NCBI GenBank assembly: GCA_021234155.1
Contig: JAJEKV010000094.1
Coordinates: 3,394,535 to 3,458,534, forward strand
Direction of reading: 5' to 3'
From: Isoetes taiwanensis
Lineage: Eukaryota > Streptophyta > Lycopodiopsida > Isoetales > Isoetaceae
Length of the DNA: 64,000 bases
In this document: one piece after another, positions 21,216-50,699 of the stretch
How the letters are laid out: each line of letters opens with the position of its first letter
Position numbering within the stretch: the stretch's first letter is position 1
Position numbers and translations under genes: made by a program
Notes under the pieces: model-generated
Told to the model about the DNA's origin: nothing
Seen by the model: the letters and a program-made list of their open reading frames with translations, nothing else
The model's database searches: none

Positions 21216-22735
21216 GCAGATAGTTAATTATCCTTTGCTATTCTTAGTTTGTGGAAGTCGTTGCTGACACGAATCTTCACCTGCTCCAAATTAACAAGAT
21301 TCTAAACCCAACCTATATAAGGTAGATGTAATCTCCTGATCAAACAAGCTTTTCTACGATCATTGTGTTCGCCTAAATTGTCTTTGTGCTCTCTTTCGGC
21401 TTTGCCTCTTGTAAGCAAGAATTAATTAATTAGAGAAATTTGGAATTCTCGTTTAGCATGAAATAGGTTCTTGGTTAGCCATAGAGTGCAGAAACTACTA
21501 GCAACTGAGTAAATGTTGGCGTTTTTTAGTACAAATTCTACCAATGATTCGCTGTCTTTCAGAAATATAGTTTTTACTGCTCATGCAAAGGTCCATTGTG
21601 GGTAAAAGGTAGTAGTATGGAATGCTCGATGTTCTCGCAAGAATCGCGAACGCGATCTTTCGCAGCTGAAAATGAACAAAATAAAGGGCTTTTCATTAAC
21701 ACCATATGAGAGCATTACGTACTGGAAAGGTGCAGAGGAGTAGGTACAGCACAAACATTTCACTTTTTTAAGCTATGTATTTGCTACAGAGGATCGCGGC
21801 CGTGATTATTTTCAACATTAAACATGCATCAAGTAATAATAAAGACAAAAAGGTATAGTAAAACATATTCCTGAAACCAAAATTTCCATTGAAGGATGTA
21901 ATGTACAATGGGGATGCAATTATCATTCAAATGATTGTGTTTCAGATACACTATCAGGTATCACGCCCAATTCATTGGCTATGCGGATTACATGCGCTCT
22001 ACCCAATTCCATAGCTTGTGTTGTGTTCATCTCTGAATAACCTGTGACCTCTGGAATCTCAACGTCCATGGCCTTTGCGATGCGCTCCACATGTGCATCA
22101 GGTTGAACTTTTTCACTATCCCCTGCACTGATCACGCTTATAAATTCCTTCTCCGACTCAGTAGCAATCTCGTCTGGATGAAAGATCTTCGGCTTCTTGC
22201 AGGCACCCTGATGCTCTTGTGTCCCAGTAGACTCATCTTGGTCTGTTTCCATGTGGTCTACGCCCATGTATTCAAACCTAGATTCGCCTGTCAAGAATGG
22301 CATGTACACATCAAGCTTCTGGTTTAGTGCCCCTAGTTTTTGGAAAGTAGGTTCGAGGGCATCAATACTTTTTTCCGTCACTTCCAGTAATCGCTTTGTT
22401 TCTTGCATTCTCTCCTCATAGCCTTTAGCATCGAGGTTATCCAAAATGACATCCAACCCTGATATATCTGTCTTTTGGGTAATACTGATGTCGGGCAGCA
22501 AAGGATTAGCCTCTGCATTCTCTGCTTTCTCCTCTTCTTCAGATCCCCCAGTAGTTTGACTGGCCATTTTCTCAAGCGTTTCCAAGGACCTCAGGAAATG
22601 GCACACTTTACCTGAACTTTCAAAGGCCACACTCTTTTTCCCTTGCATAAGAGCGACACGAGAAGCTGTCCCAGCCGAACAAAAATCCAGGACACAACCA
22701 TCAGTGGGCACCAGCTGATCAACAATATAATAGGC

Positions 22736-24059
22736 CTATCCAACAGCTCTCGTTGCCTGGAGTTACCCCCCGTGTGAATATGCACCCAAACCAAAAGGGG
22801 GTTTAAGGGGGGTTTTAATTTAAATGTGTTGGACCCAATGGTTGTGTTAATTAATGTCAATGGTAGGTATGTGTTGGTTGTTAATGTCAATGGTGGTTGT
22901 TATATATTGGTTGTTATGTGTTGGTTGTCATGTGTTGGGGGATTTAATTTTTATATGTTGGATGTTAATGGTTTGTGTTGCAAAAAAAAAAAAAAAATGG
23001 CCTTCGGCCTTAGGACGCCATCACCCGGTGTGACAAAAATTTTAGAATTCAAACCAGAAAAAAACTAGAATTCATTTGAGGCTTTCATCACCTGTAGCTT
23101 TTGAATTTTATCACAATAAAACAAATAGAACATAAGTAAAAGTTATCAAAAAGATAGAGCAGATTGATCCCATTATTCTGAAAGTCATAAAGTTTGCAAC
23201 ACCCATACACAAACATTTTTCGACTGGAATTTAACAGCAGCCTTTGGCCTCCATGGATTCTTGTGGTGAGAAACCAAAGTGGGAAACTTTTCTGCTTGTT
23301 AGCACAAGGATCTAGAAGCCTTGGAATTTACTTAATAACTGCCTCAAAATCTAAAAATGCATGGTAATTTTTTGCAAGCTTCATTCGGAATGAGCCATAA
23401 AACAATATCCAATAACGCAATCCTGTATTAATCAGCTGGTAGGATGTGAAAGCCTACCAAACCCGGCCGAAAAATTGCTGTTTTAGCATAGATAACTTAA
23501 CCAAACATATCCATATCATACACTATCAAAAAGATCTCGGAGAGAGCTTTCTAACGCAATAAAAATCATCTCAAACAGAGCTCTGGATCCAAAGTTATGA
23601 TAAGAAATGTGTTGCCGGCGGGGAAACTGCACTACATGCGCCCTTCAACCCTTCATGTGCCCATTATGCACCACACACACAAAAAGAGGGCTTTGTTGTG
23701 AGCCATTGGTTGTTGACCATTATGCACCACACGCACAAAAAAAGGGCTTTTGTTGTGAGCCATTGGTTTTCAAGCCATTCATGTGCCCATTATGCACCAC
23801 ACACACAAAAAGTGGGCTTTTGTTGTGAGCCATTGGTTGTTGACCATTATGCACCACACGCACAGAAAAAGGGCTTTTGTTGTGAGCCATTGGTTGTTGA
23901 CCATTGAAAAAAAAAAGGCTAAAATCAATGGCTAAGAAATGGTGCACTCTAGATGTACGCATTAGTACATCCATTTGAATACATCACAAAATCATAGGAA
24001 AACCTTAGTGAAAAGCGTACAAAAACACAAAGAAAACCCCCTGTTATTATGCTACATAT
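22736..24059. mobile_element. 1.3-kb insertion with 5-bp target duplication, unclassified
   Basis: It is flanked by TAGGC at 22731-22735 and 24060-24064. Removing the insert and one TAGGC restores an open minus-strand frame (..TSYAYYIVDQLVP..) that aligns with ..CSYLVQKMVLP.. in copy 2 of the same gene. This is good evidence for insertion and not an intron. The ends have no clear TIR or LTR. Inside are a GGTTGTTAATGTCAATGG minisatellite (22850-22930), an A run at 22981-22996, and a ~62-bp tandem repeat at 23640-23906. No protein was recognised. Confidence 0.7.
23640..23906. repeat. Tandem repeat, ~62/125-bp period
   Basis: Four or more copies of CATTATGCACCACAC..CACAAAAA..GGGCTTTTGTTGTGAGCC, each ending ATTGGTTGTTGACC or ATTGGTTTTCAAGCC, giving alternating unit types. 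The open frames over it are repeat artefacts. Confidence 0.9.
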
Positions 24060-26854
24060 TAGGCATATGAGGTTTTCAGCTGGCATTTCAATACAAGATC
24101 TCCTTCCATTGCTGCCCATTTGTATCTTGGTTTGCTTGTAAAAAGAGTTTGAAACTTCTTTTTTATCTTTTCATCGGCATCCTCATTACCTGTAAGCGGC
24201 ATTGGAGGCAATGGTGTTTGCTTAGGAGCCTTGCTGTGTGGAGAAAGACGAAGCTCCAGCTCAGGTTGCACAGGTGCTACACGAGCGTCACTCCTGTTAA
24301 TGCACATATGACTAATATAATACTGATGCCTTCACCTTTCGTTTGCTCTCCCAGCCCATTTCTTCATAAGAACCCAAAGACAGATGCCCACCTCCCTGAA
24401 TTTGCTTCTGACTGTACAAGCAATTCGGCAAATTCACAGAGCGCATGATAATAACCAAATGATAAACTTTTGCAGTAGTCATGGTAGCTATCCTTGTAAA
24501 ACGGTCTGTGTATTTTTTGCAATCCCATACCTTGCTGATCCTTCGGATATCAATAAATATCAATGTGGCGTTATCTGACACTGGGGAGGATGTAGGGATG
24601 CCATCCTTTGTCACTGCTAGCACAATATTTTTCTTTTCCTTTCTTTTTCTAGCCTCTTCTGGCTTTAGAATATTTCTGATTGGCTCTAGAAAGGCTACAG
24701 GCAGGTTACCTAGTGTATGATCCTTGTTATAATTTGCCTTCACGTACTCTGTATCAGTATCTGATATATCAAGTATTCTCTGCTCCGTAAAATCAGGAAA
24801 AGCCTGAAGCAATTCCTCGAAGCTATCGAAATCCGTTTGTAGCAAATTAGAGGCATAAGATAAAATTTCACGCCTCATAAAAGTTAGGGTTCTGATGTCA
24901 GTTGCCCGTTGCTTGCAATCAAATCTCCCGCTATACCCTGACTGCACCTTTAAATATGTCTTGCCTTCTATAATTTCATCTAGCAGCTGTGCCACCTCTG
25001 CATTCGACATACCTCGTAGCAACCGGAGCCAGGTCTTGTTAAAGAAGTCTTTGGATGGCTTGTCCGGAAACTCACCATGGTCGTCACTGAGCTTATGGTT
25101 CACCCACATTCCGGAAACTTCCATTAACTTCTTGAAAACCTTCTCATCCATAAAGATGAATTGTTTTTCATCTTTAAGTTCCTGCACTTTCGGCCGCGAT
25201 GTTGGTGAGTAGAAAATAAAGAAATACCTTCCAAGCTGAAGTCGTTGCAGTCCCTATCGGTCCTTGTGGAGGACAACCATAAGCCTTGTGCTGATGACGA
25301 AGTTGTTGCAGCTTTTCTATTAGAGGCTCTCTGTAGACGATATTTGCAATCACTTCGTTGCATTGAATGCTCAACTCTATATATTCCTTGTCTGTAAGAT
25401 TTCCGTTGAGCACTCTCGATCTTCTTCTAGCATATACTTTAGCAAATTCTAGTTGCTGCTCCAACTGGCCGACGACCGAACAAAGGAGCTGTGCTGCGCA
25501 AATACTGTGATTGCCGGAAATAATGTAAAATTTCTTGCCCTTCAAATCCTCTGGATTGCTCCATGTCACCCTCTTCCTGAAAAAATGGGTATCCATCAAG
25601 TCAAACTTAAAGAACGAATGTCCAAAAGAAAAACAATCAGTTACCTGGTAATGGGGTCAAATGGTACGACGTCAGCAGGCGTGAGGACCTCTGTTGGGTA
25701 TGCCTTGAAGCTTTTAACCAGAGTTTGAACATGGTCATTCGAGCGCATTCGATGTGTCAGGTTTGCTGGTGCAGGTTTACAGTCAAAAAATAGAAATCTT
25801 CGTAAACCAGTTAACCCCTAAGGGGTAAAACCGTTTAAACTGTTCAAGCTTTTGAGTGGTCTACTCTGCCATCTTGCATTCCTCTTCCGGATTGAACTTC
25901 AACTCTATTGGAATGGCAAGTGCGTGTGGCCATGTCAATAACTTGGTAGAAGAGCCTTCTGTAACAGAAGGGGGTGTTTGAGAATTGCTGGGCTGTGAAC
26001 TATCGTCAGTGTTCAGATTTCGAAGGTTTATTTTGAAAGTAGTAGTTTTTTTGGGAATAAATCCACCACTAGTAGAGCTATCTGGGGCTTTAATAACAAG
26101 AGGAAGAGTAGGGTTAATAATACTGGAGGGGTTTATGGTGGATTGTGGTTCTTCAACAACTTTTTTTGATGCTGAAGGCTCTCCCAAAGTAGCAATTGGC
26201 TTCACACTTTTTTTTTTGGCCACGGCTCTGAGCCAATTGGTGTCCATCACCGAGGGCATTTTCTCGAATCCGAATCGCTTTGAGCATCGCCGCTGGGTTT
26301 CTTGTCTGTAGACAAACCTTTTCTGCATGCCGAGAAACCTACCAAGGTGTCTCTGTTTCCCTTTATACCTGACAAAGAGGGAGATTCGTAAGATGGCAAC
26401 ACCCAGCCATAACCGAGTCCTCTACTCAGATGCAGAGGAAAAGATAGACCCCAACAGCCATGGTCTTCCTTAAGACCTGCTTTGATGAATTGGCTCTGTG
26501 AGCGAATATGTGCCGCCACCCCATCTGAGTTAGATTTGATTACTACAACAGACGAAGGATGGCTAGACTTCCACTCAACTCTCATGAGAGATGCTGAGAG
26601 AGCTTTTGGGCCTCGAATGATAGAGCTAGAACCTGGAAAGATTGATTCTGAAAGGTATGCTTGGATAGATAGCAATGTATCTCGTACAACTGGAAATATG
26701 ATTCATGCGATGGCAAATTTAACTAGTCCGCACTTGAGAGAGTCTCTAAAAGATAAGGATGTGAAATGGAATACAGCTTGGACGAATCGAAAGCTTAGAA
26801 AGGAAACCCATCAACCCCCCCATCTAGTCAAGAAAGTGTTGGCACAGACTATTA

Positions 26855-26948: not shown

Positions 26949-29483
26949 TGTTTTTATCGTCCATGGAGACCAATCGGCCTATGGGACCCAATACAAAAGC
27001 GGCCGATCACATTCTTGCGGATTAAAAACCCCGCCAGAAGGGTTTTGAGGGAAAAACCGGCAACAATAACAACTAGCCCGACAATGATTAAATGGTTGAT
27101 GGGGGCATATCCCGCCCTGGAGTCGAGTACTCCTAAATGTATGATCCGAGTGGCGCACAAAGTCTTGCCCAAGATCATGTGTAGCGGCTCATCGAGGTCC
27201 TAATCAACTTGAGCATAGCATGTCAGAATCGATCATATCTTGCGGGGCAGCTCGGAAAGTGTGACACTCATCCTCAAGCTCTCCCGTCTGGCCAGCAGCG
27301 ACAAACCCTATCTGGCGTGGCTCCCTAATCCATCGACTGTCTCAATCCAGAGATAGTGGACACCAGTGTGAATGGAGGCGATATGCTGCGCTTTCATGGG
27401 GGGCGAGATGTGAGCGTAGGTAGCGCTGTGGGCCTCGTTCTAATGTGGGATTTATGTCTTGCTTATAATGTCTTTGTTTTGACTTGCTCCGGGGCCACAG
27501 GATCCCAAAGCTTGCTTGGAGAAACAAGCATCAAGGTAACATCTCGGTACATCGCGATGCGCCTCTGTTTCTACACGGATGCACATGTGCTCTGGACATT
27601 CCATCTAGTTAGCCATTTGCACTCTTTTATCCTTCCAACAATTCTTGAGTCATTGTGGTCCCATTGCCCTTTGCATAAGCCAAGTGTGGTAGGCGATCAT
27701 CATCCATATTTACCACCTTAAGGAAATAGGCGATGTGTCTATCAAGGGGCGCTTCATTTGTCTCTGCAACAAAATTTGATATGGGACCGTGGATTTCACT
27801 CCGAGAGTGCGCGTGCTAAGAAGGCCTATACGCACTGTTCTAAGTCACTCCAAGTAGCAAGGGACACCATTGGGCCCCGGACTTCAACCCGTTACAAAGA
27901 GCGGGCTCTACCAATACCACGAGCAGTTGCACGATGTCCTCAATCATACAGTTACGCTCGTGGTTATTGATACGCATTGCATAAAGTGCTTTCCGGCCCT
28001 TTGCTACCGCGCAATCTTATGGAAGTGTCGGCAAGATAGTGTAAAAGGAAACTCCACTCCCGGATACTTGTAGGTGGGTGTCACCTCGACTTGTTGCCCC
28101 TCGATAAGTGAATGAAGGGGCCTTGGATGGCGCGCGAGGATGAGATTAGAACCACCTTAGTCTTGGCGGTTGACGTTCATGTCCGTGGCTGGCGAGAATG
28201 TATCCGGAGAATCTAGGTGAGACTGCATATCCTGCGGAGTGTGAGATAAGAGGTCAACATCATCCGCATAGATGAGTTGCCGATGAGGAGTCGATGCAAA
28301 AGTTGGGTCCCGCCCCCCCATTGTCCATGAGCGGTATTCAACCGGGTCAATGTACGCACTAAAACAATGTTGGGGAAAGAGGACATCCTGGCGGACCCCA
28401 ATCGCTAGTGAATGGTTGTCCCGTCATTCGCGATCGACTGAACAACTCTCGTGCAACACAGATATCTTGCATTTTGCATATCCACGGGAACCTCCGATTT
28501 ACGCAATCTTTCCCACAACTTTTCGAGGCCGCGATGTCAAAAGCCTTCGCCAAAGTCAATAAAGCAACAATACAGTCCCATTGACGGTTTTACGCTATCC
28601 TCAACCAAATTCCTCAATGTGAAGATATGATCAATGGTTGAATGTTGGGGGTCAAACCACGCTATGCGTGAGAGCTCGCACACTGTTGTTTACGCCCCAC
28701 CGGTCAATCTGTTGCTCAATAATGCCCGACTAGCGGTTTGGCAAACACCGAATCCCGACCATGATTGTTCGGTAATTGGTTGGACTATGTGGATCTTACG
28801 CGCCTTGTAAATGGGGACAACTCTACTTGTGATCCATTGGCGGGGAATCCTTCTGTAGTGCTATAGGCTCCCCGCGCCCACTTGAGCAACTCTTCGCGCA
28901 TACCATCCAGTCCGTTGCTTTCCCATTGGCCAAACGCCGCACCGGGTAACATCATCCTCTGTGATTTCTAATGTCGGGCCATTTTGTGGGGGTATGAGTG
29001 CTCACCTGTCTCTTGAGGATCACAGAGTTCTTTGCCGCTTTTTCCCCTCCCAATCGCTCATTAGTGATGTTCCCCGTAGGGTTGGGTCGGGCTTTCGAAG
29101 AACCTTGTGCCAAAAGGTTCTAGGATGGCTTTCCAACATGTAAAACATTTCCCTTTGATGACGTGAATGTACTGAGATTTCTTTGCCTTTAAGAAAGCAC
29201 GATATTGTGTGGTGGTATGTGGGCGCATTGCAGGATCTGTGATCTGGCGGAGCCGGCATTTGTATTCCTTACACTCAGCATCAAACCATCGATTACGCGG
29301 GAATGTTGCAGTCCCTGTGACACTTCTCGGGCATGCTATCCCAAAACATCTTTCTGCGACAGTACCAAGTAGCTCAATCAGCTGACCCGTTTGCTGCTCT
29401 AGCGTGGGGGCCTGCAAAATTCCTGAAAGGTCATCTATGAGCATATCAGCATAATCCTTTGCCTGCTCATAATCCAATGGCAA
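26949..29483 (-). mobile_element. 5'-truncated LINE, minus strand
   Basis: On the minus strand, from high to low coordinate: an open endonuclease/RT linker piece (29483-29061) with YEQAKDYADMLIDDLSGILQ, CFGIACPRS, FPRNRWFDAECKEYKCRLRQ and ILEPFG. Next come RT pieces TLAKAFDI (~28550) and GCPLSPTLF (~28365), LIYADDVDLLSHTPQDMQ (catalytic YADD at 28259-28270), degenerate C-terminal text, and a 3' end matching the LINE at ~8975-9035. The YADD is intact, but stops and frameshifts are frequent. It lies between the two halves of the kinase-like gene and ends in an ATTCT tail. A target duplication could not be fixed. Confidence 0.88.
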
Positions 29484-30845
29484 GTGAGATATACGAGGAG
29501 CTGCCGTAGAAGGGGCAAGCGTCCTGGTGAGACTGATAAAGAGTGGGAAAAAAGAAAAAGGGCAGATGCCAAGACTATATGGTTTGCAATGGTGGATTCC
29601 TCTCAGATAATCAACAGGACCAGAATTGGTTCAGGAACATATGGAACGGTGTACAAATGCAATATCTTGGATTCTAGTTTTCTTAAAGACGAACCCTATT
29701 GTGTTAGATTTCAGAATGATGATGTGCTGTTAGGTACGGTGAGGCCTGATGTGATAGTAAAGGCCATGATGAAAAACATGAGGGAGTCGCAAATGCAGGT
29801 TAGACATGGCTCTATCATACGCTGCATTGGTCGTACAACTGGATTGGAAAGAACAGGGTTGATATTTCCTTACTGGAATGGGGGTTCTTGTGCATCTCTT
29901 TTTGTGCATCATGGAGATAATGAGTTTACGAGGCATGCATTTAAAAGATTAGGGTATAATCCTAGTGTCGAGGTCGACATTCATAAGCTTGAGCAACGGA
30001 GGAAGCAAGAGTTATATGTTGCTCAAAGAGTGGGTGATCTAACTATGTCGTTTTTAAGCGGCTTGCTGAAGCTTCATAAAGAGCACCATTTACACATGGA
30101 CTTGCACTCAGGCAATGTCTTGCTTCATTTTGAATTTGGGAAAGAGAGAGGATGCACGGACCCCCAGGCTATTTATATTGGTATATGTGATTGGGGAGAA
30201 GAACGGCTAATAGGTGAGCCTGTGGAAGTGAAGCAGTGGGCATACAAAGGCATGGATGGTGCTGCCAAAAAGGCGATGGTGCCTGCAAGGGTAGATTTCG
30301 ACCTCTTAGGGGCAGCCTACTTTATCTATTACCTTGTTGATTTTGCACGGAAGCATTCTTTCTTGGAGGCGATGGGTACCACTGAACAAAGCTAGAGGTT
30401 TCGAAACATGTGCGATTATTTGAAGCACTGTGTGGAATCCCCAATACGAGACAAGGCACGCAAGTTTGATCTGAACCAGCTACTGAACACCATGCGGAGC
30501 ACTTGGAATTGCTCTTCAACACATTGCACAAGATCCCAAATGGAATCAGATTGGATTCCTCAAGTTGGGTTAGGTGCAGACGATGCTGACCAAGTGGACC
30601 AAGTCACGCTTAGCGTGCCATTTATGAGCTCTCTTGTATGCAACCAAAAAAAATTATTGATTGAACAATTGCTCTAGACACATTTAATAAAACCTCTTTG
30701 GCATTCTTATGTATTTATTTTTGTTTCACTTGATTTTTTTTATAATTAAAAAGTCATATTGAGTTATTTTTTATTTTGCGCAGTTAACATAAAGCGTATC
30801 CGCAAGAAAACGAACAAACAACTTACCGCGTACCAAACAAAAAGA

Positions 30846-32294
30846 ATGTCTCAACAACCGAGTTCGTCTCATCAGCAAGATACTATTTCTCGTCAGACGA
30901 GAGAAGGGGCTGATGAAACTGGGCAAGAAGCCAACTTCTCCTTCCCGTCCTCTTTGAGAACTCCAGATGGCTTTGTATTCCCTTCTCTACCTACATTGTC
31001 GGAGGTTAGGGCACAACAGCTATAGAGAGCAGAGGAACATGCTAGAATAAATGAAGCGTGTGCAAAAGAGCTGTTGAGGTTGAGGCAATGGCAGAAGTGG
31101 CCAAGAAAGAAGGTGTCACAATTACAGAGGTGCATGAAGTTGCATGTGACATGGGCTTGGGTTGTTGCCCGCTTGGAGCGGATTATGAGGATATCGAGGC
31201 CAATATAGACGCCAAACAGTTTGACGTCGATTGGCCAAGCAGGAGAGCAGGTAAGTATAAGGCATACGACTGCAAGATCCCTGAAGTCCGAGCTAAAGCT
31301 TTGGAGAGGTGGGTCCAAGTGAAAGGAACGATGATAAAAAACCATGAATTCAGTAACGTTTGTCAAACAAGTGTACTATGAGATTGTGAAAAGGGAGCCC
31401 GTAAATTATGCTAGTAAAAAATAGAAACAAGGAAGCGGTATAGTGGTAGCAGCATCGCGAACGATTCTGAAAGCGCTCTTGGTGATGAACCCGTGACTAT
31501 AACCTATTTGCTTCAAGATTGCCATAAAACTTTTAGATGTGGCGGGGGTTGCAGCAGCAGGTGCAGTGACAGAAGAGGTAGATCTGAAGGCTCAGTTAGA
31601 GAATGAAAGAAGTCGAAATCTTACTCTGTCAGAGAAAAACTTGCGCTTAAAAGACCATGCAAATGCTCACGACAAGATGGCTGCGGAATTACTAGACACG
31701 AAGAATCAACTTACAGCTTTGGGTAGGGAAAACACGGTGTTGAGAGTAGACAATGAGCATATGCGCACCCTGACTAGAGCCTTAGATTCTGATCCCCTTA
31801 GAGTCTTGAAGGAGCAGGGTATTGCATACCTCCCCCCCGAATACCTATATCAGAGCCAGTGGGAGGATGTAAAGAATGGGGACTTCAGATATTATCACGG
31901 GTGTGGGGACAATCTGACTCAAGTTGGTTGGTATGCCTTGGGATGTGGACATCGTCTGCATTTGAGGTGTTTGTTGGATTGGATGATGGGCAGTAGGTTC
32001 CATCCAGCAGAGAATGGATATATTATACCAGAGCGCCAGTATGTCGTGCTCAACATGCAATCACGCATGCCATCCTTCCCACCTCTGATTGCTTGCAGGA
32101 AGGATGGAATGGCTCACGCGTTCCATACCCAACATGAAATGGACCTTTGGAGGGGGGTGGAAGAACTGCGTGAAGGTGAGGAGGTACCAGACATTAACCA
32201 GTGCCTGCCTCCCACTCCTGGGCCAGCAGGGGATTGGGTGAACTCTGGTGCAAACGTGGTGATGGAGGATCAGGACGATTACTTAAACCCATGA
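30846..32294 (+). pseudogene. Coiled-coil protein with RING-like Cys/His cluster, broken frames
   Basis: An ATG at 30846 opens MSQQPSSSHQQDTISRQTRE, then RTPDGFVFPSLPTLSEVRA. A TAG at 31023-31025 interrupts; the frame then shifts near 31080 to VEVEAMAEVAKKEGVTITEV (to ~31381) and again before 31539. The last part (31539-32294) is open: a coiled coil (LKAQLENERSRNLTLSEKNL and LLDTKNQLTALGRENTVLRV), then GCGDNLTQVGWYALGCGHRL and HLRCLLDWMM. The C-x-H-x2-H-x2-C spacing resembles the second half of a RING-H2 finger; the first Cys pair is incomplete, so the call is tentative. It follows the kinase-like gene on the same strand and may have functioned with it. No family name can be assigned. Confidence 0.5.
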
Positions 32295-32577: not shown

Positions 32578-33208
32578 TATAGAGGGACAGATGCCAATTA
32601 GGATTAGTGGACTAACTGTCATCTTTTTCACCCTGGCTTAGTCTCTTTTGTTTGTCGACCAACAGGCATCCACCATGATACATAAATGTGACCATAATTG
32701 GTAGACTCTGGATCTAGGATGGCATCTTCTTCTGTAAAGCCCAACCACGTTGGAGTTTCATCGTCTCCAGGTCGGACTAAAACAAACATACCTTTCGTAA
32801 CATGTGCATGAGGATCGAACTCATCCATAGGCAACACTGGACGCCCATCTGCTGGCCCACAATACGTAGGCAAAGGTCTTACAAGCACAGCGGCTTCATC
32901 GACCTCTGGAGTAAATGCAGCTTGTAGAGGTTCTTGCCTTGTACGCAACCAAAAGTTATCATTTTGAGGTCGTTCTGGAGATACATCTTCCAAACACAAA
33001 AGAATCTCGTTCCAGTAATCCATAGTTGCTTTGTACTGTCGTGCAAACACACTATCTTCTTGATTTTTGCAGAAGGAATTCCATAATGCTATGTACTTGC
33101 TGATGCTGTCTGCCAGGCCAGGGAGATCTTTCAATGTCTTCCTTGGAGGGATATTTTTAGGCACCCCTGTTGGTAATGTTGGCTCACCATTTTCATCCTC
33201 CTTCCAAA

Positions 33209-33774
33209 TGATGAAACAAATGAAGTTCCCTTAGTCACAATAACAATCTAGATAATGATTTCGATATATCTCCTTCAAAACCAATCAAACTATGCTTAGA
33301 CAATCATGCAACTAGAACCATAAGCCAAATATTTGAATGTTACTGTTCATAAGGGTATTGACCCGATTACTGTAGTTTAGTTGACCCAAAACCTTCACGA
33401 CTCAAACCGAACTTAGATCCAACTTTGAACGATGATACAAGACTGAATTTTTGCCGAATTTCCTCTCACTATTATGTTCAAGGTCTGAGTATTATATACA
33501 GTGCAATCCCGGGCTTCTGATCGACGGTTAAGCCGTTAGGATAGGCCGACAATGAGTTGGCCTTATTTAAATGGTTTTGGCTCCATTTCGGTAGCCACGA
33601 CCTTCTCTTCAACTTTAGAAATATTTCAATGTACAATAATGGTTGGAAAACCATTGAATAATTTACTCACATGTAGACCTAGGTTTGTTAATCATAATAA
33701 CCTAGGTTAATGAGACTGTGAGTGCACGCATACCTTATAAGCAATATATGATGAACAACTTGTCAATTCCAACA
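33209..33774 (-). repeat. Copia 3' LTR (566 bp)
   Basis: In element orientation it starts TGTTGGAATTGACAAG and ends ..TTTCATCA. It differs from the 5' LTR by only a handful of substitutions and small indels, the largest cluster at 33499-33525. A polypurine tract lies at 33775-33785. Confidence 0.95.
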
Positions 33775-33858
33775 CTCCTCCTTCATCATATATTCCTGTA
33801 TTTTCCTGATCATTGCTGAATGTGAAGTTTTAGCAAACTGAACTGTCCTGATCATTGC

Positions 33859-36800
33859 TTAATGTGAAGTTTCAGCAAACTGAACTGTCTTCTTAACTGA
33901 ATATGCAGTGCATGTATTTCCTGTAACATTCATAGACTCTCTGAACTTGATAAACTTATTCTCAACAAGAGCCTTAGTGAATATATCTGCTGTTTGGTCT
34001 GCTGTATTGACATAAGTCATTTGAATATACCCTTTTGCAGCTAAATCTCTTATGAAATGAATGTTTAACTCAATGTGTTTGGTCCTCTCATGATCAACTG
34101 GATTTTTGACAATAGCCATGCAGCTTTGGCTGTCAGTAAAAATCTGTGTGGGATTTTCTTGCAAACAGTCTAACTCATTAAGTAGCCTTCTTGACCAAGC
34201 AATTTCCTTAGCAACTAATGATGCAGCAGAATATTCTGCTTCTGCTGTGGACATGGCTATAGCACTTTGTTTTTTTGTTCTCCAGGCTATTGGACCTCCT
34301 CCTAACATTATAACATAACCTGAAGTTGATCTCCTGCCACTGAGATCACCTCCCCAATCAGCATCACTAAATGCTTCCAAGGTTAGATTTTTTGAACTGA
34401 AATTTATACCATGATCTGATGTCCCTTTTAAGTACCTCAGTACTCTTTTCCCAGCTGTCCAATGTAGCTTACTAGGATTATGGTTTCTTCTGCTGAGTAT
34501 GTTGACTGCATAGGCAATTTCAGGCCTTGTATTATTAGCCAAATAGAGCAGACAGCCTATAAGAGATCGATAAGGTATTTCTTCCATCTCTTTCTTTTCA
34601 ACTTCTGAGATTTCCATATCTGCTGTAAGTTTATGTCCTGAAACTATAGGAGTTTTAGCTGAGTTGGCATGCTCAAGATTAAATCTTTTCAGCATGTTTT
34701 CGATATGCCTGTGTTGTGTGAGCTTCAAACAACCTTTCCCTCTATCTCTAGTTACTTCTATTCCAAGAAAATGCCTCAATTCTCCAAGATCTGTCATTCT
34801 AAATCTGTTCTTGAGAATTTTCTTACACTGATCTAAACAAGAAGTGCTATTTGCTGCCATAATGCAATCATCCACATAAAGTGCAATGATGCAATATTCT
34901 TTTCCATTTCTGAACCTGTACAAGTTACCATCATTTTGTAATTTTTCAAAGCTTTGTTCTTTGAGAAACTAATCAATGCAGTTGTACCATTTCCTTGGTG
35001 ACTGCTTGAGTCCATAGACAGCTCTATTTAACTTCCATATTTTGTTTTTCCCTTGTTCAAAACCAAAAGGTTGTCTTAGGTATACAGTCTCCTCTAATTT
35101 TGCATTTAGAAAGGCAGTCTTTACATCCATATGATGTAACTCGAGGTCTAAAGCATTTGCTATGCTTAACAACATTCTGAGGCTTGTCAATTTGACAATT
35201 GGGGAGTAGGTTTCATCATAATCCTTTCCCTTTTTCTGACTAAACCCCTGAGCCACCAATCTGGCTTTATATTTCAGACTTCCATCTGCATTTGTTTTCA
35301 GTTTATATAGCCATTTGCTTCCTATTATATGCTTGTCTGCTGTATGCTCCTCTAACTCATATGTGTGCGTATCCTTGAAAGATTCCATCTCTTCATTCAT
35401 TGCTTCCATCCATTTTTCCTTTTCTGGTGAATTCAACACCTCTTCAAATGTTCTGGGAACACAAGAGTCTTCTGTTATACTCAAAACTTGATCATGGTCT
35501 ATGTATCTATCTTGTATTCTTTTGCTTCTCTCTGCCTCTGTTCTACCATACTGATTTACATCAATTTGAGTGTCTTCAAGAAGTTTTGCTGCTTGTGTCC
35601 TTCTTTTGCTGATTTGATTATGATCAGACATCTCCATTTGCTTATCTACTTCTGTTTCATTTGTACCAGCATGTTCTGACCTGTCATCATCATCAGAATC
35701 TGAATTTGTTATGTCATCAACCTGCTTATGCATTTGCTCGATTTCTGCTTGGTCTTTAGTACCTATTTCTGCTTTAGTAACATCATTGTTTTTCATTCTG
35801 TCCCTGTAAAGTGCATCCTCATGAAACAAGACATCCCTGCTTATAATTATTTGTTTCTTGAGAGGGTTGTATAACCTGTATCCCTTTGACTCCTCATCAT
35901 AGCCTACTAGGTAGCCAACTTCTGCTTTGTTGTCCAATTTTCTCCTTAACTCATTAGGTACATGAATGTATGCCAAACAACCATATACTTTAAACATATC
36001 ATAATTAATAATTTTGTTACTATTAGACCATAGATTCTCAGGCACATTACCTTTTATAGCTGCTGTTGGCAGTTTGTTTTGAACAAGTGTGGCAGTCTTC
36101 AAAGCTTCTTCCCAAAGGTAATTTGGCAGTCCACTTTGTTTGATCATGGATCTCACAGCATCCATGAGTGTTCTATTTTTCCTCTCGGCTACCCCATTCT
36201 GTTGAGGGCTGAACCTGCAAGTTAATTGTCTTCTTATGCCATTGGCAATACAAAAAAGCTTTAATTTTGTTGACAAATACTCTCCTCCTCGGTCAGATCT
36301 TAGGCATTTCAATTTGTGGCCAGTTTCTCTTTCTACTTCAGCTACATATTGTTTAAAAGCTTGCAATGCTTGTGACTTTCTTTCAAGACAATAAATTTTG
36401 CATTTTCGAGAGTAATCATCAATAAATGTGATGAAGTACCTCTTATTTGTCCTGCTTTTGATATTTAGAGGACCACAAATGTCAGAATGCACAAGTTCAA
36501 GAACTTGATTTGCTCGATTTCCTGATTTTTTGAAGGGCAACCTATTTATCTTCCCAAGCATGCATCCTTCACACATAATCCCATCTGTTTTAATGTTTTT
36601 GCATGATATCCAACCCTTTTCAGCCAAAAACTTTATATTGTTGCAATGTGTATGAGCCAACCTATTATGCCATAATTCTGTTTCAGATTTAGTTATGCAA
36701 TTTATACTGCTATTGACAATGCCTTCTAACTGAAAAAGATTTCCAAATCTCTTTGCATAAAATTTCAATTCATTGTCAAGAAAAATACTACAACCTTGGG

Positions 36801-38115
36801 AATCAAAATCAATCTTGTATCCCAAGTCAACAAGTTGACTAACTGAAATCAAATTCTTAATCAGAGTAGGAACACATAAGACATTTTCTATGTCTACTAT
36901 GTTTCCATTCAAGTCTATTAGCTGCAGCAATCCAGACCCTTCAGCATATTGAACTTCTCCATTCCCAACTTGGATTCTGCTTTTTCGTGTGGCATCAATG
37001 TTCTTGAGTAGATCAGTAGTCTGTACTACTGATCTCTCAGCTCCACTATCAACTACAACAACATCAGATTTATTAGTTTCATAATTTTCATGTTTGCCAA
37101 TCAACAATTTTTTTACCTCATTTTCATCTTGATCTTCTTCCTTTGCATTATCTTCTGCTGCCTTTGTGATATGTACTCCTGCTGGTTTGCTTCCTTCCCT
37201 TTTTGCAAATCCTCTTCCTCCTCTTGGATTTCTTTCCTTTCCTCTCCCTTGATTATAATCTTTGGGAGTTGAGCATTTAGCTGCTACATGTCCTCTTCCT
37301 CCACAATTAAAGCAATTGAATTCTTTTTTAAGCTTGGGACATTCACTTTTGAAGTGGCCAATCTCATGGCAATAGTAGCATGTAACTTTCTTTTTAGTAC
37401 TAGTAAGAAGTATCTCAGCAGATTCCTCTCCTTCTTTTAGTTTCTTCTGCTCAAATTCAGTTCTCAAGACCTTCTCTGCCTCTTCTCTTGTTTTACACAT
37501 GTTTCTCACAAACATGCCTAATTGTTCATTATCGCTAATAGCTCTGGAAATTTGTAACACTTGACTTCTGTATGATATATTGACTCCAGCTGCTGCTAAA
37601 TCAGCAGCCATATTGTCAAAATGATTAAAATATTCTGATACATCTCCATCAACATGAAGCTTAAGCCCTCTGAGCTCATTCTCCAAGAGTTCTATTTGGG
37701 ACGAAGTTTTTTCTTCATAGTTTTTCAGCAAAAAGATCCACATTTGTCTAGGACTCTTTTCCCTCAATTTAAGTCTGATGGTAGAACTTACCTTGCACGA
37801 AATTATTCCCTGTGCTTCCTTGACTCGTGCATATTTTGATCTTCCTGCCACTCCACCTTGGCTGATCACTGTTTCCCTGGCACTTGTTTCCCCTGCATTT
37901 GCATTAGTAACATTTGCATTTACAGATCCTTCTGATCCAGACCTTTCTATGGTGTTAACTGGACTGCTCAAATCCACACCTTCAGGATCTACAAGATCCC
38001 ACAACTCTTCTACTTCAAGAATGTGTTTAATAGCATCTTTCCATACCTGAAAGCCTGCTCCTCCTTTGAATACTTCAACACTGCTCAACAAACTAGCACC
38101 AAACCTGCTTGACAT
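33859..38115 (-). CDS. Copia gag-pol polyprotein with one in-frame stop
   Basis: ATG at 38115. Domains in order: Gag (UBN2-type, to ~residue 235); two CCHC knuckles, CYYCHEIGHFKSEC (~244-257) and CFNCGGRGHVAAKC (~264-278); protease VVDSGAERSVV (~352); pre-integrase LWHNRLAH (~478); integrase with HSDICGP, LRSDRGGEY and QQNGVAERKN (D, D, E; ~545-640). Reverse transcriptase starts near residue 930 (KWLYKLK, KARLVAQGF), with LYVDDC downstream of the stop. RNase H has EAFSDADWGGD and STAEAEY, ending at 33859. A single TAG at 34969-34971 lies inside RT; the frame on both sides is the same, so it is a point change and not a frameshift. About 1,400 codons, usual for Copia. The order protease-integrase-RT-RNase H fixes the superfamily. 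Confidence 0.96.
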
Positions 38116-38158
38116 CTTCCTTTAAAAATGAACAAGCACAACCTGCTCTGATACCAAA

Positions 38159-38730
38159 TGATGAAACAAATGAAGTTCCCTTAGTCACAATAACAATCTA
38201 GATAATGATTTCGATATATCTCCTTCAAAACCAATCAAACTATGCTTAGACAATCATGCAACTAGAACCATAAGCCAAATATTTGAATGTTACTGTTCAT
38301 AAGGGTATTGACCCGATTACTGTAGTTTAGTTGACCCAAAACCTTCACGACTCAAACCAAACTTAGATCCAACTTTGAACGATGATACAAGACTGAATTT
38401 TTGCCGAATTTCCTCTCACTATTATGTTCAAGGTCTGAGTATTATATACAATTGCAATCCCTAAGCTTACGATCGGCCGGTTAAGCCGTTAGGATAGGCC
38501 GACAATGAGTTGGCCTTATTTAAATGGTTTTGGCTCCATTTCGGTAGCCACGACCTTCTCTTCAACTTTAGAAATATTTCAATGTACAATAATGGTTGGA
38601 AAACCATTGAATAATTTACTCACATGTAGACCTAGGTTTGTTAATCATAATAACCTAGGTTAATGAGACTGTGAGTGCACGCATACCTTATAAGCTCCAA
38701 TATATGATGAACAACTTGTCAATTCCAACA
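38159..38730 (-). repeat. Copia 5' LTR (572 bp)
   Basis: Partner of 33209-33774. The primer-binding site TGGTATCAGAGC reads on the minus strand at about 38145-38156, two bases inside the LTR. The near-identity of the two LTRs indicates a recent insertion. Confidence 0.95.
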
Positions 38731-41039
38731 TCCACATTCTTATTCCATTTTCTGGAATCCACTCTTTATGGGTTGGCCGCATCTTATATTGCATAATGGG
38801 AACCCATCCATTTTAAATCGGAATAGCAATGGGTCGGTATGGCCTGTTAGACGTTGGCCCTTATCAGGGATATATCCCTTGACAAAGCCTTTCCAATCTG
38901 GAACTTCATCCACAAAATATGGAACAGGAGACTTTGCATTGCACTTGCTAAACAAGTAAAGCAACTCAGACAAAGTTAGAGCATCCGATGAACTCATTAA
39001 CGTCAAAAAGTTCCCAAACAATGCATCAATATCGTCATGAGTATGCCCAACTATCATGAAGCCAACCTGAATCTCATCGAATACCTTAAGCCATGTCAAA
39101 TAAGAGAGGTAGGAGAACACATATCTATTTTTATTTTGACCCGATGCATTATCCAACTGTAAGTAGAGATTTCGAGGAAGAGGATTGAAGCCTTCTAAGT
39201 AGGCACCAGAAGATGAAGGCATCTTCTCTTGTGTCTGCGCTAGCTTATGCTGCAGTGGTCGAGTGGCTTGCATCAATTGATGCAGTGGCTTGCATCAATT
39301 TGCAATTTGCAATCTGTAGTTCTGCTTCCACACAGATCACCACACTTGTTTTCTTCTGGCAACTCAAGATAGTGTAGGATTCTAGAAAGTGATCCAACAT
39401 GAAAGTTTGAGTCATCCTTCCAAAGATCAAGAGAGAAATGGCCATAAGCCCGTCCACCATGACCATGTGCCAATGCTCTGTCAAAGCCGCTCTTCAAGCG
39501 ATCTCCTCTCCAAACGGACTTTGCGAGATGGTGACTTCTTGGTGTGAGTGTTTTGACCTGATCCATCTTATCATGTATTATGCAAAGGTGACTTTTCGGC
39601 GACGATGTGATAATGCACGCCAATGCCAATATTGACTCCCTCTACAGAACGTTGTTCCAACATATGTGCCCGTCGTTGAATTGAAAGGTTAAGCCTCTCC
39701 CTTGTATCTTTTGTTCTTTCCAATTTGCTGATGACTACACATATGTTACACTTGGAGAATGTTTGTATTTTTGCTATCTTGCCGACGCCTGAAACTCTTT
39801 CTTCCAAATATTGTAAAAAGAGGGCAAGGTTACACTCTTTCCCCACAATTCTTCCACCACGGCACCCACTTCCTTATGTATGCTCTTCTTATTAAGGATG
39901 GAAGGAAGTTTGTGAACATTCTCCCTTATATCATCCTTTCCTTTTTGCTTCTATGTGGAATGCTCTCCAAATTCTCACTAATGAAGGTATCAAGCACACT
40001 TTTACGTAGCTAGTGTCCGGATCTAGGCTTCTTAGAGCATGTATTACCATGCTCAAGCCCATTTTCCACCTAACTTTCGAACCTCTTCCTCCAACTATAA
40101 AGCGTAGACTGAGCAACTCCTAAAGCCACGCCCATGCGGAATTGACACTCCACTGCGAGACCACTACTTTTTCGCCTCCAGACCGCCCTGTATAAGTTAC
40201 ACTCAACACATCAAAACAAAAGCGTAATCCTCGCATTTGCTTGATTGAGAATAAAATTCTTTTCTTAAGGCACATACTTGCTCTCGGCTCAGTTTTTTGA
40301 CACATTTGTCCTTGCAGCATGTTGATTTTGGAGCACTCTTGATTGACTTGGAAGCGCACATCCTCTCCTCCTTGCTATCCCCCTTTGGTTCCCTCCTGAC
40401 CCTCTTCACATATGTATATTTCCTTTTCCTCTTGAATTGCTTCTCAACATCAGCTTCCAAGCACTCAACTTCTAAGTCATCCTGTTCGAGGAGCAGCTCG
40501 AGCTTGTAAATGTTATTGAAACTGTCCTACCATCATGAAGCAAAACATCATGGGTCTCCCCTGTGTTACTAGGCTCGTTAGCTAGAGGCCTCTCAAAGCC
40601 TAAGCATGACATGACCTGATATTTTGGTTTCCCGTTGGATCTATTATGTTACCCAACTGAAAGCCGACCTTTGATTCACCCAAGAACTCATCGTCTATAG
40701 GGTGAAAGTATCTTTGGTGGGTAGCAAAAAAAAGCGACCCAAAGACCCAAAGACCAAAGACCCTTCACACTACTTTTCCACCCTTCACCAATTGAAGTGT
40801 AACCTATGCTATGCCCGTCACTTCACATAGGGGCGTGCGTTTCAATCATAACCTTCTTACAGCCCACCGTAACTAATGGTGTGACCGAAAAGGGTAGCGA
40901 ACTTTAATTTGTAATTTCGAACCGTGCTCCCCACCTTTTGCTACTCGGCCATATAGCCCGGGAGAAGAAGCTCTAAATTTCGGGGATTCACTCCAAGCTT
41001 AGTATTCCAAAACTCAAACGCCAAAAACTATGGTGAAGA

Positions 41040-46632: not shown

Positions 46633-48731
46633 GTTGCGGCATGCAATGAAGAGAGTATTACCTTTTCAAGCGTCTTCCATTCAAGCAAGAACTCATGATT
46701 CTCTCTCTCTCTTGGACATATAGGAAGAGTTTTTATGCCACGCCGACATATATGCATCAGCGGTCATGTTTATGCCATTCTTCACCCTCGCTCTTGTTGC
46801 AAACCCACGACCCTCAAAGCTTCGTTGGTTGAGTCATACATATATTGGCTGGCGGAACCGTCTCACCGGTCCACGGACCTCGCGGTGCACTTGCACTCTT
46901 CACCATGAAATCCGGTTTTATTTGACCTTAATGCATTCGGGGCTACCACGGCATACTCAACTTCATATGGTATATGCAACAACGGGTTTCCCTTTACGAT
47001 ACTTTCTTTACATAAATAGGCTTCAACTTCTCCGAAAGCCTTTAAGCAAAGCGGGGTGTTCGGGATGTGCCTTTTTGTATTGTTGAAATAGCTCGGTGAA
47101 TGGTGGCCGTTGGTTAGAAATATTTATGCAACAATAGCAAAGAAAAATTTGTATGGAAACTTATACACATGTGACCTCCATAAGGTGCAAGGGATAAGAA
47201 ATTCGAAGCTTGACTCTCCAACGGTGTTCACAACATCTTTCTTGCAAGGAGAGACTACGCTATTTTGTTTCGAATTACGGTATGCTTTGCTTGCAAGCGG
47301 GGGTGAAGAATCACACCTCAACCTCCTTTGGAAGCTAGACCACGGACCATTTCAAAGGGCGGCTTCGATTTTTCTTAATCACGGCGGTTTGCAATTGTTG
47401 ACCTCATGCAACCTATCATAAGAAATATTGCACATTAATCAATGAACATATCTCATCCGGCATCACTTTCGGCCGGATACAAGCACTTAAAAGCACTTAA
47501 AAGCACGAAGAAGCACGGGCATGAAAGCAAGAATTAGATGCACCTAACAGCCACTGCCATAGTGGAATTGCATCTCGATTTTGTGGAAGAAGCCATCACC
47601 CGGTGTCGAGGTTACGGCTCTCCAAACATCATGGTTCCTTTGCCTCTTTGTGGCTGCCATTGTCTGTTTCAAGTTGTTGAGCGGCACCCCCACGCCTTGC
47701 ACTCCTTTGGATTTGGCAAAATTCAGGTTCACGAGATTCCCATTTTAGGTGGTGATGAACCACCCTCTTCATCACATCGGCCTTGAGTTGGGTGAATGTT
47801 TTTGGTGAGCTTATTGAAGTAATCAACTACTTGCTTGGCTATTTCTTGCTTTTGCGTCTCATGCTTTCGAGATCCTCCCGTTCAGCATTTGCTTTTCTCA
47901 TCTTATTCCGTAATCGTATTCTCTCTTTCTCGGCGCATCCAATTTCTTGTAAATTGCGAGGAAACTGGATCTTCCGTGATATTTCTGTGTTGCATTGACA
48001 TCCAACAAATCGGAACAACGTATTGGGATTCATCGGGCCGAAAATCCAATGCTAAGCGTGTGATTGCCTCGGGGCGGTATCGAGGGGCGCCATGAAATTC
48101 ACGAGAGAGGGAGGGATAAGTGAATTGGAGGGAGAAATTTCAAGCGGGCCATGACGAAGTAATCAATTTACAGCGTACTACCACACCACTTTCGGCGAAA
48201 ATCCAGCCGGAAGCCCACAATCATTTTCCCCTAACGGCTCGTTAGGTAGAGGTGGGCGTCGCAGTACATGAAGGCGTAAAAGAAATGACGGGCGATTCGC
48301 CCATCGGCGCAGTTAAGCAAAAGCGGGGGGTGCTGATAGCGGGGGCTAAAACACCTATAAGCATCGTCCGGGCGCATGCTTTTGCTACCCACCAGCATAC
48401 TTTCACCCTATAGCATCCCCGAGGATCACTAAAGACTATATTAAGCCTCCGGTCCACTTAGATCCAATGCAGGAGTGAAGAATGTAGCATGGCAAACCTA
48501 GTAGATCTGTTCTAGAGTAGTAGACATCTCATCTTCGGGGCTTAAACAACCCGAGACCAAGGCGGGCAACTAGATTCTCATGACCTCAATCTCCTCTACT
48601 ATCTCGTCTTCTTCATTTGTTCTTTGTGTTGCTTGGTTCACCACAGTGAGCAAGAAAAGCTAATGTCCGTGAGACTCTTGACGGATGGACTACTAGATGA
48701 ATCCTCTTACAAGAGGGCAAATTGAGGGATC

Positions 48732-49622
48732 TCAAGGCGTATCTTCAATTGAGGGGCACTCAACATGTTTTACATCCCTCTTAGGCCACCAATGAATGTG
48801 CCCTCTTGCTTCACCAATGTTATCTGCCCCTCCGCAGGGGACTGGAAGCTCTGTCGATGGGATCACGGACTCCGTGACCTCAATTGCTACATTTAAAGGA
48901 TCTATTTCCCTCCCATGAAGAGTGGTTCTCTTCAAAATATGGCCCCGGGCAACAATTGTCCTTCCGACGAATAGGTTATAGAGGGGAAAATTGAACCTGT
49001 TTCAATCAAGCAAGGCGACACTTTTTAGAACATATGAATTAGACGAAAAATAAGCACTAAACAAGCAAAAATGGCGCCATTTAGTACAAAAGAATAAATT
49101 TTGGTGTAAATTTGGACATAAATGGCGCCATGGCGCCATTTGGTAGAAATGGTGAACACTTGGATCAAATGGCACCATGGCGCCATTTGTTCCAAATTCA
49201 TACATATGAATTTGCCATAGGTGTGAATTTGGAACAAATGGCGCCATGGCGCCATTTGATCCAAGTGCACCATTTCGACCAAATGGCGCCATGGCTCCAT
49301 TTGGCTCCAAATTTACATTTCGACCGTACACCATTTCAACCGAATGGCGCTATGGTGCCATTTAGACTAAAACCCCATTTTAGTGTATTTGGACCAGAAT
49401 GGCGCCCTGGCGCCATTTGATCCAAGTGGGTGCCATGGAGCAATTTGGCTTAGCTCCATCACAAAATCTACACGAGGTGTCTATGCTATGCATTCTTGCT
49501 CCCATTGCTGTATATGTGTCAATAAGAGCAGGCATGAATAACATGGGCACCCCATGCCAACTTTGCAATTGAAACCAAGGTTCTTCAGCATTAATGTCGG
49601 CATTTGAACACGCTATACACAT
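48732..49622 (-). pseudogene. Fragment of a plant transposon-type protein (DUF8039-like), with palindrome-filled gap
   Basis: The stretch 48960-48732 (minus) reads GRTIVARGHILKRTTLHGRE, then VAIEVTESVIPSTELPVPCG, then GEARGHIHWWPKRDV. The pattern 'G..vA.G.v....H...l......V.V.....~..lP.P.......A.G..i.WP' is that of a domain found at the end of plant CACTA-type ORFs (DUF8039-like). A separate open piece at 49622-49455 (minus) reads CIACSNADINAEEPWFQLQS then WHGVPMLFMPALIDTYTAMG. If both belong to one gene, the ~490 bases between them would be an intron filled with the GGCGCC palindrome array. This linkage is inference. Confidence 0.45.
49120..49418. repeat. Array of six 22-bp palindromes (core TGGCGCCATGGCGCCA)
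   Basis: Copies at 49120-49141 and 49236-49257 are perfect palindromes (AAA + core + TTT). Copies at 49167-49188, 49281-49302, 49342-49363 and 49397-49418 have one to four changes. Spacing is 45-69 bases; the spacers contain further half-sites and words such as CCAAATTCATA and CCATTTCGACC in inverted order, so the whole block can fold on itself. Confidence 0.95.
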
Positions 49623-49859
49623 GGCAGCAATAGAACAGAATTCATACCAGAAATAGTGGACTTACTTGATATTAGATAGATCCATAGTGGTATGTCCTGG
49701 AGCAGTAGATGGAACAGGAAAATCAAGCTGATCCCAGCAGATAAATTCGCAGAAGAATGCGCCAAGAAGAAAGCGTCAAGAATCACCTGGGATTTCGTAG
49801 GCTAAGAAGAAAGCGCTGACAAAGACGCATGCGCAAAGTTTCGCCTAGGCGCTGAGAAA

Positions 49860-50340
49860 AAGAAGCCTGCCTTTCATGGCGGCGGTAAATGCGAGCGGTG
49901 GATTCGGCGCTTTGAACCGCGGTACCTCTAAAACGTCTGCGTCGTGCCATGGTCGCTTTAAGAGGGAGAACGGCGACAAAGAGGGAGCTTTAAATGCAAA
50001 GCACAATTTTAAAAGCGGATGATTCAAATTTGAACAGGTGGCAGTCAAATTTCAATTTACGGGCAGGAATTTTGACTTTTATGTTAATTGGCGGGGGATT
50101 TTTGAATTTTATGTTCAAATTTGGGCGGGGTGTTAGAAGGGAAATATTCAATTTCAAAATTCAAATTTAAGGCGGGCATGGGCGCCCGGGACCGCCGATG
50201 CATGGCCGAGGCATAGGCGCTGGACCCACCTGGCATGGGCGGGCATGGACGGCTGGGCGGGCATGGGCGCCTGGACAACCACGGGCCCTAGTTGGCGCTT
50301 TGTGGTACAACGGATGACCCGCCGACAAAGTTAGTTATGC
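49860..50340. repeat. GC-rich region with GGGCATGGGCGC repeats
   Basis: GGCGGGCATGGGCG and CATGGGCGCC words recur at 50170-50280. The rest is AT/GC patchwork with no supported gene. Confidence 0.5.
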
Positions 50341-50407
50341 CTAATTGTTTTTCTGAAGCACCTCATTCGGTTTTTTCGTTTTCGATTCTAGCTCCTAGCG
50401 TCTCGAC

Positions 50408-50462
50408 CTTAGCCACCAGCGCCCAGCGCCTAGTCGCCAGCGCCTAGCGCCCAGCGCCTAAA
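50408..50462. repeat. CAGCGCCTAG minisatellite
   Basis: Five or more 9-11-bp copies of (CC)AGCGCC(T/C)AG in a row, including AGCGCCCAGCGCCTAG and AGTCGCCAGCGCCTAG. Confidence 0.85.
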
Positions 50463-50699
50463 GCAACCCATTTTGGTCCTTTGTTTTCACAGTTCAGCGC
50501 CTCAACGCATCAAGCTACACACTAGTTTTCGGACCAAATTCAAAGGCTCAAAATGGAAAGCGACAATTGGAGCTCCTCGAGAATGTGGAGACAATGGCTA
50601 AGCGCACCTCAAAGGAGACGGTATGTCATCTACTTGCATTGTTTTGTTTGGGCTAAATGGCCCGGTAGCGCCATTTAGATGCTATTAACCCGGTTTAGG

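Follow-up and report, generated by a model that had tools for sequence, protein, structure and literature searches.

Within a 64,000 nt stretch of the Isoetes taiwanensis genome (assembly GCA_021234155.1, contig JAJEKV010000094.1, positions 3,394,535 to 3,458,534; in the following called the window), two diverged sequences, copies A and B, are parts of a DNA transposon with terminal inverted repeats (TIRs) and two divergent genes. One gene encodes a DUF7869 protein and the other a protein with a ParB-like region and a methyltransferase-like domain (in the following called the second gene). The element carries palindromic sites that are family-specific in the loci examined. We give an even chance to the interpretation that the second-gene protein is a catalytically altered, sequence-specific DNA-binding factor for recognition of its own element, which would protect the element from silencing or control its genes or transposition.

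A first-pass annotation of the window had described a plant gene family with two copies combining a ParB/Srx-like and a methyltransferase-like module. Comparing the two copies directly by BLASTP confirmed that they are diverged and homologous beyond chance, with 27% identity over 97 aa in the exon after the GNHS block (E = 1e-14) and 33% over 43 aa in the motif-IV block (E = 6e-5). When pieces of a complete copy related to copy A (L023) were used in tblastn, they matched copy B, located on the plus strand, with E-values of 4e-4 to 3e-21 and copy A, on the minus strand, with E-values down to 3e-144.

We searched the genome from which the window derives (1.66 Gb, 1110 contigs) and refer to the two sets of related copies as families A and B. 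The middle exon of copy A yielded 4,589 first-look candidates (127 scored, 128 matches listed) and the methyltransferase part of copy B 2,387 (150 scored, 153 matches listed); these numbers refer to candidates and are not full counts of copies. Among the matches listed, the identity to copy A falls into groups of ~90%, 74% and 62%, and frames of 500–700 aa are kept in many of the copies listed in the middle-exon search.

Four complete family-A copies were identified in contiguous stretches of 10.2–10.5 kb. All four begin with AAGCAYGATTTCATTAATT and end with its close inverse, constituting 24-bp TIRs with 20–21 of the 24 positions matching. Three of them show an exact 4-bp target site duplication (TSD; TTTT, TATA and AATT), and in the fourth it is offset by one base. 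The right end of copy B carries a TIR of the same type. Both genes are present together in all four complete A elements, the DUF7869 gene in the left half directed leftward and the second gene in the right half directed rightward. Six pieces were scanned for Pfam DUF7869. Two pieces from A loci and one from the window matched with E-values of 5e-18 to 1e-33, a fourth had an E-value of 0.15, and the remaining two, both from the window, had no match. Since no large gene other than this one accompanies the second gene in the element, the DUF7869 protein is presumed to be the transposase and is the candidate for the RNase H-like DDE/D enzyme expected of a TIR DNA transposon. For family B, the deleted copy L036 joins matches to window positions 40399–40700, 48408–48483 and 52099 onward; both B genes therefore belong to one element.

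The thousands of candidate copies together with the TIR/TSD ends rule out a host gene family, and the label "plant gene family" has to be replaced by that of a transposon-borne gene. A retrocopy or LINE origin, considered for the truncated window copy, was dropped after complete copies with TIRs had been seen. The element is a cut-and-paste-type DNA transposon, for which membership in Sola1 is plausible because of the 4-bp duplication, as Sola elements have 4-bp TSDs. A review lists Sola1 for Physcomitrella and Sola for Capsicum (PMC9033089), hence land-plant Sola elements are known.

Two further features were observed at the left ends of A elements. In L037 and L038, the stretch from the left TIR to the DUF7869 gene contains two related plus-strand frames of ~80 aa. 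Moreover, the left ~500 bp of A elements are 88–98% identical between copies, and this near-identity even in otherwise distant subfamilies suggests that exchange between A elements may have occurred.

Palindromic sites of the two families

Family A carries 16-bp palindromes of the GATCGCGGCCGCGATC type (A-sites), first noticed in introns and located in intergenic, intron and terminal stretches. Allowing up to four mismatches, the four complete A copies contain 9, 13, 12 and 11 A-sites versus 0.1–0.2 expected from a first-order Markov model, and none was detected in the flanks read with these copies. A right end could be recognised in 15 of the 20 A loci; at the same threshold, the 119,494 bp to the left of the right TIR in these loci, which may hold some flank or insertions, contain 133 A-sites, and the 30,506 bp beyond it contain 1. 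Sixty composition-matched control palindromes reached a maximum of 3 occurrences versus 132 A-sites in the 20 A loci.

For the regional distribution, we allowed up to three mismatches and used motif anchors in the 11 of the 20 loci possessing all exon anchors. The highest density is found between the genes, with 38 sites in 9.4 kb. Introns 2 and 3 together with exon 3 hold 12 sites in 5.9 kb, the 3′ terminal part 12 in 14.4 kb, and the DUF7869 side, with exons and non-coding sequence taken together, 18 in 29.7 kb. Exons 1–2 (14.5 kb) and exon 4 (19.2 kb), 33.7 kb in total, contained no A-site, and neither did the 16.9 kb past the right end. The site is kept across subfamilies in which the intergenic DNA is no longer alignable and silent sites are saturated. 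In the window outside of copy A, we found one A-site at up to three mismatches (position 11931) and one with four (28521).

Family B carries a different palindrome, AAATGGCGCC-NN-GGCGCCATTT, i.e., ATGGCGCCATGGCGCCAT, extended to AAATGGCGCCNNGGCGCCATTT (B-site). Sixteen B-sites lie at positions 38732–62600 of the window and none elsewhere in it, and the sites are arranged in tandem units with lengths of 45, 59 and 29 bp. Among nine distinct B copies (L030 and L041 are the same, as are L033 and L044, and each pair was counted once) we found 19 B-sites, spread over seven copies. Eighteen of these map upstream of the gene or in its intron and one sits in an upstream end that could not be mapped, and the maximum among 60 composition-matched palindromes was 2. 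The 20 A loci contain no B-site and the nine distinct B copies (37 kb) no A-site. Close to the right end, the window, L042 and L044 have a shorter sequence, ATGGCGCCAT, which is not among the L041 or L043 matches.

The second-gene protein

In the typical B copy L042, the second gene consists of frames of 581 and 564 aa, some intron read-through included, with a short presumed intron containing a B-site between them. The encoded protein comprises, in this order, an N-terminal region, a variable linker, the ParB-like region, a helical middle part, the methyltransferase-like domain and a tail. The N-terminal region was modelled as beta-rich with low confidence. After removal of a short GT-AG intron, the ParB-like regions of families A and B are 39–41% identical; for the methyltransferase-like region the identity is 23–26%. 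Judged from substitution rates, purifying selection on the gene is evident: the ratio of nonsynonymous to synonymous substitution rates (dN/dS) is 0.12–0.39 in 7 of 11 pairs, these being close pairs with computable dS, while the other four, formed by A copies at a greater distance from each other, have saturated dS and a dN of 0.21–0.37.

The resemblance of the C-terminal half to beta-class DNA amino-methyltransferases is supported by structure modelling. The AlphaFold2 model of this region has a mean predicted local distance difference test (pLDDT) score of 48.6, with 65–73 for residues 241–300, 65–72 for residues 411–450, and lower values between. The strands and helices of the model follow the order of beta-class enzymes, beginning with the motif IV strand and finishing with that of motif I. 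All 31 Foldseek matches in PDB at E-values of at most 1e-3 are known or putative DNA amino-methyltransferases, CcrM, RsrI and MboIIA among them, with the best values for CcrM (7e-6) and RsrI (2.5e-5) and query TM-scores of 0.22–0.27. A profile search against PDB sequences likewise had RsrI as its best match (E = 0.005), at motif I, and the remaining matches were unrelated proteins with E-values of at least 0.07. At the position of the RsrI match lies a motif-I-like loop (DFFSAGTASR or DYFSCGSFGR), which we compared with the FxGxG-type S-adenosylmethionine-binding motif I.

The motif IV of DNA amino-methyltransferases is usually [DNS]PP[YFW]. This catalytic motif, expected of an active enzyme, is lacking here; all 14 aligned copies have D-x-R-[GS] instead, and the broken window copy A has D-I-R-R. 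With CcrM, RsrI and MboIIA the protein thus shares the permuted fold and a motif-I-like loop located towards the C-terminus of the domain, but it differs in missing the DPPY/SPPY motif, in its long fused N-terminal regions and in being encoded by a gene with introns.

No relatives pointing to a prokaryotic or viral source were found in searches with three parts of the protein. For the C-terminal frame of L003, no such relative reached an E-value of 1e-3 among the best 7,996 candidates, and for the methyltransferase core none reached 0.1. The ParB-like region had no relative in IMG/VR or GTDB genomes and, among phages, just two matches with E-values of ~9. Pfam and PHROGs scans of the exons of the second gene gave weak or stray matches only. 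Two environmental proteins (P0001 and P0002), encoded on contigs of 675 and 650 bases, match the ParB-like profile with E-values of 1e-65 and 1e-63; both are continuous where the short intron splits the region in A copies. The ParB-like assignment itself, suggested by the motif pattern and a published algal precedent described below, is tentative.

Copies A and B in the window

Copy A (21413–26414, minus strand) is a left-truncated fragment of a family-A transposon that includes the right half with the second gene, as delimited by blastn to eight close copies (L009–L016), most of which have the same boundaries at 26414 and ~21413. The gene previously placed at 21.9–26.3 kb is present, but its limits are not those of the copy, which runs from the right TIR end at 21413 to the point at 26414 where its left side is cut. 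The right TIR, AAGCAAGAATTAATTAATT (21413–21431, plus strand), has 3 mismatches to the family TIR; other copies end at the same place, and such a match also arises in 5 of 100 shuffles. Two degenerate family-A palindromic sites were detected by the site scan, AATCGCGAACGCGATC (21642–21657) and GATCGCGGCCGTGATT (21792–21807).

The exons of copy A, all on the minus strand, were assigned from open reading frames, tblastn, BLASTP and alignment. The most upstream exon or exons (25645–26414; tblastn) encode DTNWLRAVAKKK, the linker, and the PANLTHR and PADVVPFDP blocks, followed by a probable GT-AG intron (~25577–25644). The next exon, with approximate ends (25227–25576; tblastn and BLASTP), contains FYIISGNHS of the ParB-like block. 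An exon part for the middle helical region and the motif-IV block IFIDIRRI, in which the fourth motif position is R, follows (24312–25202; open reading frame, tblastn and BLASTP), and another one with methyltransferase motif I (VLDFCSAGTASR) and the C-terminal tail (21923–22735; open reading frame and alignment). The gap at 22739–24055 is not an intron but a foreign insertion with flanks overlapping by ~12 bp, since it is missing from the eight aligned close relatives. Related repeats with a spacing of 56–70 bases were observed inside this insertion.

Both window copies are broken and neither can work, while long open frames are kept by copies elsewhere in the genome. Copy A is ~60 bp short at 25191 relative to other copies, and the frame of copy B breaks near 52280 and after ~53890.

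For copy B, the gene assigned by the first-pass annotation to 51.3–54.2 kb was recovered, but it belongs to a larger element that includes the DUF7869 gene and has its right end at 62597. The DUF7869 gene lies at 38732–40129 on the minus strand (PF25273 for 38740–39294, E = 1.2e-33; tblastn to a complete copy). It is interrupted by a Copia long terminal repeat (LTR) retrotransposon on the same strand (33204–38730, ends approximate), recognised by its frames and direct repeats. The C-terminal part of the gene past this insertion, at 32628–33230 (minus strand), with the gene sequence itself placed at 33209–32733, was identified by tblastn to a complete copy (E = 6e-16) and had no Pfam match when scanned alone. 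The Copia element is apparently young, as the ungapped LTR stretches compared (297, 218 and 33 bases) are identical.

Between the divergent genes, at 49122–51243, lies an array of 12 family-B palindromes (ATGGCGCCATGGCGCCAT and variants, up to three mismatches), partly in 45-bp and 59-bp tandem units. The second gene follows on the plus strand. Its first exon or exons (51278–52280; open reading frame and tblastn) encode DTAWLKTVSKKK, a charged linker, PANLTSR, PADVIPFNP and YYIVNGKHS up to the first frame break, after which the ParB-like region continues in another frame (52299–52553; tblastn and BLASTP). Four B-sites in 29-bp tandem units lie in the presumed intron (52584–52704), with sites at the same place in six of the nine distinct B copies. 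The middle helical region and the methyltransferase-like domain with IALDTRG and VFDYFSCGS are encoded at 52746–53908 (open reading frame, tblastn and alignment), the second frame break following LMNKR. The 3′ part is interrupted by an unrelated 8-kb element at about 54251–62310, as shown by six distinct B copies that run without interruption over 54247/62311. The right end of copy B then extends from 62311 to 62597 (plus strand) and carries the TIR (reverse complement of AAGCACAATTTCATTAAAATGAGAAATTT), identified by comparison of B copies and a TIR search. A search of the window for the left end of copy B did not find it.

The 8-kb element has inverse ends sharing GTTTAAAATGAAACGCACT, parts of it also occur in L018 and L021, and it contains 8 copies of a different palindrome, GGTATAAATTTATACC, at 54821–55087 and 59745; it may be a separate, third element that has a site array of its own. 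The interval separating copy A from copy B's DUF7869 gene contains a protein-kinase-like frame (29427–30395, plus strand; PK_Tyr_Ser-Thr, 30.1 bits, above cut-off) and a weak RING-like frame (31503–32294, plus strand; below cut-off), which are either cargo of the B element or unrelated sequence.

Candidate readers of the palindromes and known systems

The arrangement of the sites can be compared with the targets of the VANC proteins of Arabidopsis VANDAL elements, sequence-specific anti-silencing factors for which binding and demethylation are proven in the work cited (PMC5735166, PMC10398659). In both systems, the element encodes a non-transposase gene, and short motifs recur in its non-coding parts (introns, intergenic and terminal stretches), partly as tandem units, with the motif varying between related families (PMC5735166). 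In contrast to the 9-base YAGTATTAY bound by VANC21 (PMC5735166), the sequence found here is a long palindrome and a putative target.

In our preferred interpretation, the second-gene protein with its replaced motif IV would no longer methylate DNA, or do so in an unusual way. It would bind the family-specific palindromes in the promoter region, the introns and the 3′ end of its own element, and such binding might protect the element from host silencing or control its genes and transposition in a VANC-like manner. The loss of the catalytic motif would argue for binding without methylation. In class, placement and diversification the sites resemble VANC targets; the non-transposase protein would be a natural candidate reader, and a palindrome would fit a dimeric methyltransferase-like or ParB-like protein. 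Bacterial ParB/parS offers an analogy in the ParB-like GNHS block and the clustered palindromic sites, but the homology search was null and nothing here indicates a partition function. More broadly, and with somewhat less than even confidence, we propose that a dead or altered methyltransferase and a ParB-like region were co-opted by a eukaryotic transposon, that protein and palindrome co-diverge, and that an anti-silencing system may have arisen independently of VANC from different protein parts.

Several observations weigh against this interpretation. The mean confidence of the methyltransferase model is low, and the Foldseek superpositions are loose (root mean square deviation of 8–14 Å). 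For the ParB-like region, there was no Pfam ParB match, the PDB profile search was null, the structure model had no significant Foldseek match and VIA-align 2 gave nothing usable. The hhalign comparison to F-plasmid SopB yielded 3% probability, and a search of PDB with SopB as the query did not provide a wider ParB-N sequence set. Thus, of the two modules proposed for this gene, and in the fold comparison suggested with them, the methyltransferase-like half found its counterparts among DNA amino-methyltransferases by Foldseek and the RsrI profile match, but the ParB/Srx half did not in any of these comparisons. Some copies have few sites or none: the A copies L024 and L025 hold one site each in the stretch examined, and two of the nine distinct B copies, L032 and L043, are without a B-site there, the upstream sequence of L043 not matching the element. 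Finally, the reader of the sites could be the DUF7869 protein or a host factor.

That the DUF7869 transposase reads the palindromes, through internal binding or synapsis, with the second-gene protein in another role such as bridging or recruiting, we consider rather unlikely. Sites do occur in the terminal region as well as on the side of the DUF7869 gene, the two genes travel together in the four complete elements, and the subterminal repeats of CACTA elements serve as internal binding or synapsis sites. However, the densest arrays are intergenic and in the introns of the second gene, not at the ends, and transposases usually bind terminal repeats. Activity of the protein as a DNA N6-adenine or N4-cytosine methyltransferase that marks its own palindromes with a protective or labelling modification is improbable. 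The fold resemblance with the motif-I-like loop, the suitability of palindromic sites for a dimeric methyltransferase and the published proposal for an algal relative, the Ectocarpus Sola1-1 protein (PMC12477816), would fit such an activity, but the replacement of motif IV in every aligned copy argues against it. A purely autoregulatory role of the palindromes, as operators of the two divergent promoters and unconnected with silencing, would agree with the peak of density between the genes but appears similarly improbable, as introns and the 3′ end hold sites too, like those of VANC.

The view that such a gene is unusual holds, but it is not the first of its kind. Dinatale et al. 2025 (PMC12477816) report a ParB-plus-DNA-methyltransferase accessory protein of 1104 aa in Sola1-1_Ec32 of Ectocarpus and related transposon proteins in green and red algae, for which self-binding is a suggestion only. 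Going by that description, both systems have the gene opposite the (presumed) transposase inside a large DNA transposon, a protein of ~1,100 aa (compare the two frames of L042) and a DNA amino-methyltransferase-type domain, here as a fold resemblance lacking the catalytic motif. They differ, compared by description (PMC12477816), in the non-canonical motif IV and the ParB-like region unrecognised by Pfam, in the size of the complete elements (10 kb for family A versus 21.5 kb) and in the family-specific palindrome arrays found here. A limited literature search yielded no report of a land-plant form, this element, DUF7869, target palindromes or the motif-IV change. While ParB-plus-methyltransferase accessory proteins of transposons were already known from algae, the family-specific palindromes are new.

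If the palindromes are the targets, the element would be a suitable system for studying self-recognition of DNA by transposon proteins, and the existence of two diverged families with two different palindromes would make domain swaps possible. In that case, candidate target sites would become available for the algal ParB/methyltransferase accessory proteins, and bacterial-type modification enzymes would be a second origin of sequence-specific transposon self-recognition, besides that in VANDAL elements.

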